From Desulfuromonas sp. (GTDB lineage Bacteria > Desulfobacterota > Desulfuromonadia > Desulfuromonadales > Desulfuromonadaceae), in NCBI GenBank assembly GCA_002869685.1, contig PKUE01000186.1:1-47763 (forward strand): DNA of 47,763 nt. The letters run 5' to 3'. Position 1 is the stretch's first letter. Every line of letters starts with the position of its first letter. Below the pieces are notes generated by a model. That model searched no databases. It saw nothing but the letters and a program-made list of their open reading frames with translations, and was not told the DNA's origin. A program made the translations under genes and the position numbers. Positions 21,589 through 38,377 of the stretch are shown in pieces.

Positions 21589-22800
<1,212 letters not shown>

Positions 22801-22841: not shown

Positions 22842-23798
22842 ATGAGCATCATGCCGCTGCTCGAACGGGCTGAATTTGTCAAATTGCGTTACCGGGTTCG
22901 GCTGTTGGAGGAGATCGATCTGGATCTGGCCACCTTATTACGCTTGCGGCGGAATTTTCGCGCGGCTGGACAATATATGCTGGCATCGGGTCCAACCACT
23001 GGTACTGGTATCAACCGTTTCAGTGCTCTTTTTTCGCCGCCCATTGCGGAGGATCCCAGTGCTCGGCAACGTTTCCAACGTAGCGGCGCGGCTTTTGTTC
23101 TGCAGCCGGACCCGCAGAGTTGTCGCCACTATAGCCGGGGTGAATTGCTGACGTTTCCTGTCGTGCTGTGGGGAGGGCAGCAGGAACGTATTGTTGATCT
23201 GGCCAGGGTATTTCAGGCACTGGGACAACGTGGATTACGCTATGACGCCGGCCGGTTTGAGTTGATTGAAATTGCCGGGCAAGATTCTTCCGGTAGTTAT
23301 GCCAACCTGTGGCGGCAGGGGGAAGCTCTGGAACAAGTGCAGAGCCCATTGCGGGACGCGGATTGGTGGTTGTCGACTCTGCCTGCCGGTGTCCAGTCGG
23401 TTGCATTGCATTTTGTTACTCCGGCTCGCCTGCTCAAGAATCAGCGCCCACTGTTTCAGGCCGACTTTGTCACACTGTTTCCGTTTATTCTCCGCCGGGT
23501 TACATCCATGCTCTACGCCCATTGTCGTATTGAACCGGTCGATGATGTCGGTGCCTTGCTGGAACTGGCGCGGGAAGTGACCGTCGCCGAGAATCAATTG
23601 CAATGGCAGGATTGGCGACAGCTGGGGCCCGATGCTGCACATCAGCATCCCCTTGGTGGCATCATGGGGTCGGTGCAGCTTCATGGCGCGGCAGTGGAGG
23701 ACCTTTTCTCTCTGCTCGAACTCGGGACCTTGATGAATCTGGGCAAAAACGCAGCCTATGGCGCCGGGCAGTATCGGTTAGAGCTTTCCGGGCGATGA
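22842..23798 (+). CDS. Orphan Cas6-family RAMP protein (PF10040-like)
   Basis: The 318-residue protein starts at ATG 22842 with an excellent GGAGGAAA site. The pattern fits Cas6 of the PF10040 type: an N-terminal ferredoxin-like half with Y-S-R-G-E-L-L-T-F-P-V-x-L-x-G (about residues 99-113), a G-L-R-Y-D-A-G-R-F-E-L segment, a VALHFVTPARLL strand with F-x-x-L-x-x-R-R after it, and a C-terminal glycine-rich loop LGTLMNLGKNAAYGAGQY (about 296-313). Cas6 proteins cut CRISPR precursor RNA. Here no CRISPR repeats and no other cas gene lie anywhere in the window, so its RNA target is unknown. It is divergent from tgt. Catalytic histidine identity cannot be fixed by eye. Confidence 0.75.
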   Translation: MSIMPLLERAEFVKLRYRVRLLEEIDLDLATLLRLRRNFRAAGQYMLASGPTTGTGINRFSALFSPPIAEDPSARQRFQRSGAAFVLQPDPQSCRHYSRGELLTFPVVLWGGQQERIVDLARVFQALGQRGLRYDAGRFELIEIAGQDSSGSYANLWRQGEALEQVQSPLRDADWWLSTLPAGVQSVALHFVTPARLLKNQRPLFQADFVTLFPFILRRVTSMLYAHCRIEPVDDVGALLELAREVTVAENQLQWQDWRQLGPDAAHQHPLGGIMGSVQLHGAAVEDLFSLLELGTLMNLGKNAAYGAGQYRLELSGR

Positions 23799-23871
23799 TT
23801 TGAAAAGTCCCATTGATTCTGTATACTTTATATATCTTTATCACTCTCGACAAACATTTGCGGAGGTGGTT

Positions 23872-24177
23872 ATGAAAGACGTCTGGGATGAGCGAGAAAA
23901 AGCTTTTGAAAATCAGTATTTTCGTGATCTGGAACGTAAACAGATTGAAGCGATGAAAGAAAAGAAACACGAAGATCAGGTGTGTGAGCTGTGTAGGAAC
24001 CGCTGCCCGAAATGTGGTGAAGAGATTCAGGCTACGACATTTCGCGGAGTCCCACTGGATCAGTGCCCCTCGTGTGGTGGTATCTGGCTGGGACCGAACG
24101 ATCTGAAAATCCTTGCCGAAAAAGACCACCGTACCTGGTTTGATACCTGGTTTCTGCAGGAAGCGGATAAAAAATGA
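23872..24177 (+). CDS. zf-TFIIB domain protein
   Basis: The 101-residue protein starts at ATG 23872 after CGGAGGTGG. A charged helical N-terminus leads to a zinc-ribbon of the zf-TFIIB type: CPKCGEEI then CPSCGGIWL with the W-L-G-x-x-D-L ending typical of the family. An extra C-E-L-C-x3-C precedes the ribbon, giving additional possible metal ligands. The family has no established reaction; members are short cytoplasmic proteins. It follows the Cas6-like gene by 73 bases and has its own ribosome site. Confidence 0.82.
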   Translation: MKDVWDEREKAFENQYFRDLERKQIEAMKEKKHEDQVCELCRNRCPKCGEEIQATTFRGVPLDQCPSCGGIWLGPNDLKILAEKDHRTWFDTWFLQEADKK

Positions 24178-24374: not shown

Positions 24375-24869
24375 ATGGGGGACTTTGTCTTTGTTCTATT
24401 GGTTCTTGGCGGTCTCGGGGTGTTTTTTTATCGACAAAGTCAGGAAAAAAAGGCCCAGAACGCAGCTAAAATACAACCGGCTGTATCCTGTGCGCCCCGC
24501 GTAGAAAAAGAAAAAGCAGCTGAGACGGTCGCGTGCGAAGAAGAGACCGCTGCTGAAGTTGTTGAAGCGCCAGTTAAGGAACCAGCTGAAGAGCAAGCTG
24601 AAGAGCAAGCTGAAGAGCAAGCTGAAGAGCAAGCTGAAGAGCAAGCTGAAGAGCAAGCTGAGGCGCCGAACGCGGAAATGTACGATGCTCTGACCTGGCG
24701 GGTTTTACAACGGGTCATGGAGCAACCGGGAATTCTGCAGACCGATATCTATGGACTGTTTCCGCGGGAGAATCGCAAACATCTGCAGGCGACGCTGTTG
24801 CAGCTGGATAAAGAGAATGTCCTTCGCCGTGAAAAAGAGGGGAATACCTACCGTCTTTTCCCGGTTTGA
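24375..24869 (+). CDS. Membrane-anchored protein with EEQA repeats and C-terminal winged-helix-like domain
   Basis: The 164-residue protein has one N-terminal transmembrane helix (about residues 3-18), then an acidic, low-complexity linker containing six perfect E-E-Q-A repeats (residues 72-95), then about 60 residues (ALTWRVLQRVMEQPGILQTD to the end) patterned like a winged helix: helix, ILQTDIYGLF helix, LLQLDKENVL helix and a final hairpin. I do not know its function. The layout suggests a helix-turn-helix head held at the membrane by a flexible spacer. GAGGAGGA precedes the ATG. Confidence 0.75.
   Translation: MGDFVFVLLVLGGLGVFFYRQSQEKKAQNAAKIQPAVSCAPRVEKEKAAETVACEEETAAEVVEAPVKEPAEEQAEEQAEEQAEEQAEEQAEEQAEAPNAEMYDALTWRVLQRVMEQPGILQTDIYGLFPRENRKHLQATLLQLDKENVLRREKEGNTYRLFPV
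24588..24659 (+). repeat. Six perfect 12-bp tandem repeats inside a gene
   Basis: The unit GAAGAGCAAGCT occurs six times without a single mismatch, coding for E-E-Q-A in frame. Because the unit is a multiple of three, copy-number change would alter linker length but not the reading frame. Confidence 0.97.
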
Positions 24870-31424: not shown

Positions 31425-31501
<77 letters not shown>

Positions 31502-31511
31502 TTAAATACAA

Positions 31512-31588
31512 GCGCCAGTAGCTCAGCTGGATAGAGCATGTGACTTCTAATCACAGGGTCGAGGGTTCGAGTCCTTCCTGGCGCGCCA
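31512..31588 (+). tRNA. tRNA-Arg (anticodon UCU)
   Basis: Acceptor GCGCCAG pairs with CTGGCGC; anticodon stem TGTGA/TCACA encloses CTTCTAA (anticodon TCT); T loop TTCGAGT; CCA is encoded. It reads AGA/AGG codons. Only 10 bases separate it from tRNA-Pro, so both are probably processed from one transcript. Confidence 0.96.
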
Positions 31589-31608
31589 CTCAACAACCCT
31601 GAATTTGG

Positions 31609-31637
31609 TTGACAATAATTTGGCCGGTAAGTAGTAT
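31609..31637 (+). promoter_or_regulatory. Strong candidate promoter for tRNA-His
   Basis: A perfect TTGACA (31609-31614), a 17-base spacer and TAGTAT (31632-31637) end 15 bases before the tRNA. The placement would give a short 5' leader. Confidence 0.7.
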
Positions 31638-31652
31638 GGCCTCCTCGTTTAT

Positions 31653-31729
31653 GGTGGGTGTAGCTCAGTTGGTAGAGCGCTGGATTGTGACTCCAGTTGT
31701 CGAGGGTTCAAATCCCTTCACTCACCCCA
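31653..31729 (+). tRNA. tRNA-His (anticodon GUG)
   Basis: Anticodon stem CTGGA/TCCAG encloses TTGTGAC (anticodon GTG). The acceptor GTGGGTG (31654-31660) pairs with CACTCAC, and the extra encoded G at 31653 pairs with C73, the G-1 identity element of tRNA-His. CCA is encoded at 31727-31729. Confidence 0.96.
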
Positions 31730-31740
31730 TTTACCATGAT

Positions 31741-31803
31741 AGACTCGATCGTCGATGTTCTTGTCGGACTCCCGGCGAGAGTAGCGACGATCGAGTCTTT
31801 TTT
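31741..31803 (+). terminator. Long-stem intrinsic terminator after tRNA-His
   Basis: A perfect 14-bp stem (31741-31754 with 31785-31798) is followed by a T run to 31803. The 30-base loop could fold further. It isolates tRNA-His from tRNA-Leu. Confidence 0.88.
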
Positions 31804-31888
31804 AGTTTTGGCTCCTGTGACAGGATTGTTTTCACTCCTGTTCGGGCAGGAAGCCCCGGCCCGTGAGTAACGGGTGTATCGCCGTAAT

Positions 31889-31971
31889 GCGAGAGTGGCG
31901 GAATTGGCAGACGCACTGGATTTAGGATCCAGCGGGCAACCGTGGGAGTTCGAGTCTCCCCTCTCGCACCA
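31889..31971 (+). tRNA. tRNA-Leu (anticodon UAG)
   Basis: An 83-base class II tRNA: acceptor GCGAGAG/CTCTCGC, anticodon stem CTGGA/TCCAG with loop TTTAGGA (anticodon TAG), a variable arm and encoded CCA. Confidence 0.95.
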
Positions 31972-38124: not shown

Positions 38125-38201
38125 GGGGCTGTAGTAGAGTCGGTTACAACGCCGGCCTGTCACGCCGGAGGTCGCGGGTTCGAGTCCCGTCAGCCCCGCC
38201 A
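38125..38201 (+). tRNA. tRNA-Asp (anticodon GUC), copy 1
   Basis: Acceptor GGGGCTG/CAGCCCC, anticodon stem CCGGC/GCCGG with loop CTGTCAC (anticodon GTC) and encoded CCA. Identical in sequence to the copy at 38301. Confidence 0.96.
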
Positions 38202-38218
38202 TTCGATAAAAACATTAT

Positions 38219-38294
38219 GGGCGAATAGCTCAGCTGGGAGAGCATCGGTCTTACACACCGAGGGTCACAGGTTCGAGCCCTGTTTCGCCCACCA
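38219..38294 (+). tRNA. tRNA-Val (anticodon UAC)
   Basis: Acceptor GGGCGAA/TTCGCCC, anticodon stem TCGGT/ACCGA with loop CTTACAC (anticodon TAC), encoded CCA, 76 bases. Confidence 0.96.
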
Positions 38295-38300
38295 TAACAA

Positions 38301-38377
38301 GGGGCTGTAGTAGAGTCGGTTACAACGCCGGCCTGTCACGCCGGAGGTCGCGGGTTCGAGTCCCGTCAGCCCCGCCA
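38301..38377 (+). tRNA. tRNA-Asp (anticodon GUC), copy 2
   Basis: A 77-base exact copy of the tRNA-Asp at 38125. Six bases separate it from tRNA-Val, so all three are likely one precursor transcript ending at the terminator just downstream. Confidence 0.96.

Follow-up and report, generated by a model that had tools for sequence, protein, structure and literature searches.

What does a Cas6-family protein do in a place without CRISPR? The window (the whole stretch of DNA that was analysed, 47,763 nt) encodes a Cas6-family protein of 318 aa at 22842..23798 (+), which we name Cas6L here. Neither a CRISPR array nor another cas gene was found in the window, as an earlier sequence-only reading had claimed. 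Here, we describe the family and locus of cas6L, its distribution, its relationship with CRISPR systems, and its probable origin.

Family assignment and genomic locus of cas6L

In a profile search, Cas6L matched Pfam PF10040 with 46.7 bits (cut-off 25). It also matched the PADLOC Cas6 model PDLC01477 with 206.7 bits at residues 10-314, almost its full length, and no match was found in NCBIfam. The sequence-only reading had named the lack of a Cas6/RAMP profile match as evidence against itself, and the PF10040 match lies well over the cut-off. The Cas6 pattern that it described also held, and YSRGELLTF, FVTP, and GKNAAYGAG are all present. The last of them is the glycine-rich C-terminal loop with a basic residue, in which G301, K302, G307, and G309 were invariant among 31 Cas6L proteins. 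In addition, the ribosome site that it had pointed out, AGGAGG, precedes the ATG of cas6L.

The AlphaFold2 model of Cas6L, built from seven sequences, had a pLDDT of 82 and a pTM of 0.84. Its best structural matches were all Cas6 proteins, and it showed the double ferredoxin-like/RRM fold. The top match was MMB-1 Cas6 6dd5 (VIA Z 18.6, rmsd 3.9, 259 residues). A sequence search of solved structures with Cas6L returned only MMB-1 Cas6, weakly and confined to the C-terminal part, and nothing was found when one CRISPR-type relative was used as the query. Because the modelled fold is that of Cas6, Cas6L should bind host RNA, and on the strength of the model we regard RNA binding as likely.

Both neighbours proposed from the sequence were matched by Pfam. 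The divergent neighbour is tgt, coding for tRNA-guanine transglycosylase (21589..22704, -; PF01702, 535.9 bits; start taken at MFSFELL). On the other side, a zf-TFIIB zinc-ribbon protein of 101 aa is encoded from the ATG at 23872 (23872..24177, +; PF13453, 56.2 bits), and a putative promoter -10-like element of this gene, TGTATACT at 23820..23827 (+), was recognized by its match to the consensus. It is followed by a gene for a small protein with an N-terminal hydrophobic stretch and variable repeats (24375..24869, +), a conserved neighbour that lies near cas6L in many loci of the order and for which all Pfam families scored below the cut-off. A tandem 12-base repeat (EEQA) lies within this gene at window 24588-24671. 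Elsewhere in the window, two identical tRNA genes flank a third tRNA and are separated by 176 bp (38125-38374), and there are four further tRNA genes at 31425-31968.

The order tgt, cas6L, zf-TFIIB, and small protein was fixed in every locus of the family that was checked. In several other families, tgt is separated from cas6L by frdCAB (fumarate reductase/succinate dehydrogenase), and the genes after cas6L are an ftsH-like gene and enolase. Of the 20 Geobacter-type loci fetched, 15 have frdB immediately upstream of cas6L, and in most cases tgt stands on the far side of frdC. In most of the class, tgt adjoins cas6L or stands beyond frdCAB, and the cas6L locus (tgt, frdCAB, cas6L, and the ftsH-like gene) is an old chromosomal locus. 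The four Geobacter-type proteins aligned from this slot shared 21-28% identity with the window protein; they were considered to be orthologues because the slot and a DP...QK motif are common to both. A link of cas6L to tgt in particular was also considered and rejected, as several families have zf-TFIIB adjacent to cas6L and tgt elsewhere.

Distribution, selection, and independence from CRISPR

We found Cas6L in all 14 genomes of the family. In the order, the profile matched 113 of 136 genomes, and true Cas6L amounted to 113 copies in 112 genomes, because the sole match of G097 is a type III Cas6 and was left out, and G038 has two copies. Complete single-hit core copies scored 196-503 bits and the CRISPR-type Cas6 proteins of G043 and G097 scored 77-85. 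In the class, which includes Geobacter, a broader profile with four Geobacter-type members matched 247 of 277 genomes (172 of 187 good genomes; 77 of 82 genera); this count includes the type III Cas6 of G097, so that Cas6L occurs in about 246, and the Geobacter-type genomes beyond the loci fetched were assigned by score alone. One family of the order (f17) has neither Cas6L nor zf-TFIIB in any of its 14 genomes. A member of it, G113, carries 98 exact copies of the published repeat of Pelobacter carbinolicus (PMC2923632) in 34 kb, and therefore f17 is the Pelobacter carbinolicus family.

A locus without CRISPR context could hold the decaying remnant of a CRISPR system that was lost. However, the cas6L reading frame is open in nearly all genomes, dN/dS in close pairs is 0.06-0.16, which indicates purifying selection, and the gene has been retained through the class; the relic explanation is thus close to negligible. 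Furthermore, cas6L is nearly always present in one copy, occupies a shared slot, and its tree largely follows the families. Within the Desulfuromonas/Geobacter class, Cas6L is a core gene that is inherited vertically and kept with or without CRISPR.

Another explanation is that Cas6L is an ordinary Cas6 that acts in trans on arrays elsewhere in the cell or on arrays gained occasionally, an option that the sequence-only reading had included. Cas6L is indeed a Cas6 homologue, most type III systems are believed to rely on a Cas6 in trans (PMC12669027), and arrays do occur in some genomes of the order. For instance, ATTGAAA-type arrays (ATTGAAA three times at array spacing, a pattern with 0 matches in a reversed control) were found in 23 of the 136 genomes. 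Of the same 136 genomes, Cas1 was detected in 37, Cas3 over the cut-off in 33, and type III RAMPs in 6. However, the presence of Cas6L was independent of these genes: a Cas1, Cas3, or RAMP marker was present in 39 and absent from 73 of the 112 Cas6L genomes, and present in 9 and absent from 15 of the rest (OR 0.89, p=0.82 across the order, a test that ignores phylogeny). Moreover, 66 of the 112 Cas6L genomes had no Cas1, Cas3, RAMP, or ATTGAAA array; among those tabulated, 29 were of high quality, including the single-contig G062 and G135. No array and no cas genes were seen in the Cas6L loci that were read.

The genome of the window has a CRISPR system of its own. On contig C28 there is a complete type I-F locus with Cas1f, Cas2-3, Cas8f, Cas5f, Cas7f, and Cas6f (199.6 bits, within the operon). 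The array behind it has the repeat GTTCACTGCCGTATAGGCAGTTTAGAAA, and counting by a shared 16-mer gives a run of 43 copies. In this assembly (94.8% complete), we found no RAMP, no ATTGAAA array pattern, and no match over the cut-off to the Cas3-core model, a search that misses I-F because the I-F Cas2-3 scores under that cut-off. Orphan arrays with repeats of other types may occur, in this genome outside contig C28 and in other genomes. Since Cas6f is encoded in the I-F locus itself, this system does not lack a processor that Cas6L would have to supply. The sequence-only reading would have been weakened by a type I/III locus without its own cas6; the sole CRISPR locus found has one, and this speaks against the in-trans option as well. 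In addition, G043 has a separate CRISPR-type Cas6 in its type III locus despite the core copy elsewhere in the genome.

Sibling species point the same way. In five of them (G000, G009, G001, G007, and G008; loci L040 and L042-L045, on contig C28 of the window's genome and in four siblings), the CRISPR loci adjoin the same neighbour gene, 92-98% identical, and judged by genes or repeat their types are I-F, I-F, I-E, I-C-like, and I-C-like, respectively. This site is a spot where CRISPR types get swapped, and Cas6L keeps its own place in all five siblings. To our knowledge, none of the I-F, I-E, and I-C subtypes uses a Cas6 of the Cas6L kind. As a separate observation, G009 has, besides its I-F locus, a locus with a Cas9-like protein of 1037 aa, Cas1, a Cas2-like gene, and an array of ~30 repeats (L041 6337-12702). 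Taken together, we consider the in-trans explanation to be very unlikely. Cas6L is a core gene regardless of CRISPR, and it therefore very probably has another RNA job; domestication for a non-CRISPR role is the part of our interpretation that we hold with the most confidence.

Origin, conserved residues, and possible partners

In a tree of 69 proteins, 47 core Cas6L proteins were split from 22 CRISPR-type Cas6 proteins, a label assigned by sequence and covering the type III proteins of G043 and G097, with support of 100/100. After 19 Geobacter-type rows were added, Cas6L and CRISPR-type proteins still lay on opposite sides of one branch (SH-aLRT 99 by a quick method). Among the CRISPR-type loci read with flanks, several had cas genes or arrays; those of G180 and G303 lie at contig ends and had none.

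Both trees are unrooted, and a single branch divides Cas6L from the CRISPR-type proteins. The direction could thus be reversed, with Cas6L an old host RNA-binding protein from which the CRISPR-type Cas6 of Desulfobacterota was derived. However, no protein outside the class had a Cas6L-like profile score (the best was 150 bits), and the Geobacter-type Cas6L has a partly degraded form of the Cys4 motif that is intact in the CRISPR-type, as a derivative would. Cas6 is also widespread in other phyla. The reversed direction is therefore highly improbable.

The CRISPR-type relatives carry near-invariant YKGS/RGxFG, Cys4, HPF, and ERYSxRQ motifs. The Cas6L of the order lost all four, except the first Arg, and the Geobacter-type Cas6L kept most of Cys4. 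The HPF and ERYSxRQ motifs, invariant in the CRISPR-type relatives, are gone in the Cas6L of both orders, and in this respect Cas6L departs from a functional CRISPR Cas6. Meanwhile, R218, R219, K302, and the glycine loop are kept throughout Cas6L. To judge from the alignments, these best-conserved residues represent an RNA-binding architecture and not catalysis. The repurposed RAMP protein that the sequence-only reading had offered as an option is strongly supported by this motif loss together with the class-wide retention, the independence from cas genes, the fixed synteny, and the purifying selection.

Does Cas6L still cut? It may be a non-cutting, domesticated RNA-binding regulator, a chaperone, or a subunit of a host RNP, possibly with the zf-TFIIB protein. 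The loss of the HPF His and ERYSxRQ in all Cas6L agrees with this, and so does the pattern of conservation, in which the N-terminal helix Arg, like the other candidate N-terminal catalytic residues, varies across the class and the RNA-binding positions stay. However, Sulfolobus Cas6 without the canonical His still cuts, and no single residue is essential in it (PMC3652601). Thus, the motif losses in Cas6L are no proof of inactivity and cannot decide the matter. Furthermore, R36 and R37 hardly vary within the order, and an Arg37 is an active-site residue in a related Cas6-RT-Cas1, 7kft (PMC8102632), although a residue-level match between the two proteins could not be made. We regard the non-cutting protein as possible but the less probable case; by analogy with other Cas6 enzymes, the chances that Cas6L cuts RNA site-specifically would be about even.

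Our interpretation is that Cas6L goes back to the kind of Cas6 found with type III CRISPR systems in Desulfobacterota. The ancestor of the Desulfuromonas/Geobacter class would have domesticated it, and it would have become fixed in the chromosome as a core gene. Cas6L would now most likely bind the hairpins of one host RNA or a few, and would probably cut at their base in the manner of Cas6 enzymes. As a whole, this sequence of events appears to us somewhat more probable than its alternatives together.

The zf-TFIIB gene was found in 100 of the 136 genomes of the order and lies directly downstream of cas6L, on the same strand, in 91, with a median gap of 91 bp. The two genes co-occur strongly (OR 77, p=6e-14; without f17, OR 28, p=1e-5; both ignoring phylogeny). 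In G038, each of the two cas6L copies (L156 and L157) has its own zf gene and only one has tgt beside it; the pair seems to travel together there, and a mixed assembly is possible. A strict operon is disfavoured, because a TATACT/TATAAT-like element (by consensus match) recurs in the cas6L-zf gap in most loci read and the two genes are apart in family f19. In addition, there is no zf gene near the Geobacter-type cas6L. The zf-TFIIB protein may act as a physical partner of Cas6L in Desulfuromonadales, a plausible idea to which we give slightly less than even chances. A bolder version, which we consider doubtful, is that Cas6 became a class-wide housekeeping RNA endonuclease whose zinc module moved from the internal Cys4 of the CRISPR-type and most Geobacter-type proteins to a separate zf-TFIIB partner in Desulfuromonadales.

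A terminator-like hairpin with a T-run lies between frdB and cas6L in the same 15 Geobacter-type loci. This strong hairpin ends the frdCAB operon and is a candidate substrate of Cas6L, though an unlikely one; it looks like an ordinary terminator. In two loci (L172 and L173), the T-run stops only about 3-12 nt short of the proposed start codon of cas6L, and translation may therefore need read-through or cutting of the hairpin. Where frdCAB is absent, no shared RNA hairpin upstream of cas6L was found by family alignment and single-sequence folds.

Comparison with known systems

The exaptation of CRISPR systems has been discussed in the literature (PMC8730458, PMC12669027). In the open-access papers searched, we found no description of a solitary or domesticated Cas6 that has become a core gene throughout a bacterial class, and within that literature Cas6L as a class-wide non-CRISPR core gene seems to be undescribed. 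A Cas6 match alone is thus no evidence of CRISPR, because current Cas profiles label Cas6L as Cas6. Geobacter is genetically tractable and belongs to the class, so the RNA target of Cas6L can be sought directly.

Solo-Cas4 (PMC5704561) resembles Cas6L as a Cas family member away from CRISPR-cas loci. However, solo-Cas4 belongs to another family, that of an adaptation-module nuclease, whereas Cas6L belongs to an RNA-processing family and is a class-wide core gene. The Cas6f (Csy4) of the same genome shares the broad Cas6 group with Cas6L, but it is the expected crRNA processor of the cell, and it was matched by Cas6f profiles only and not by those that match Cas6L. The closest solved structures are the Cas6 domains of Cas6-RT-Cas1 proteins (6dd5 and 7kft, Z 18.6 and 17.9), which act in CRISPR as fusions with RT-Cas1, whereas Cas6L stands alone.

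The type III-associated Cas6 of Desulfobacterota (the PDLC01477 kind) is of the same family and is the probable source of Cas6L. Both have R218, R219, K302, the glycine loop, and, in most members, WxDW. However, CRISPR-type members scored 314-369 bits against PDLC01477 and Cas6L scored 145-207. Unlike the type III-associated Cas6, Cas6L is a core gene outside cas loci without HPF and ERYSxRQ, and in the order it is also without YKGS/RGxFG and Cys4.
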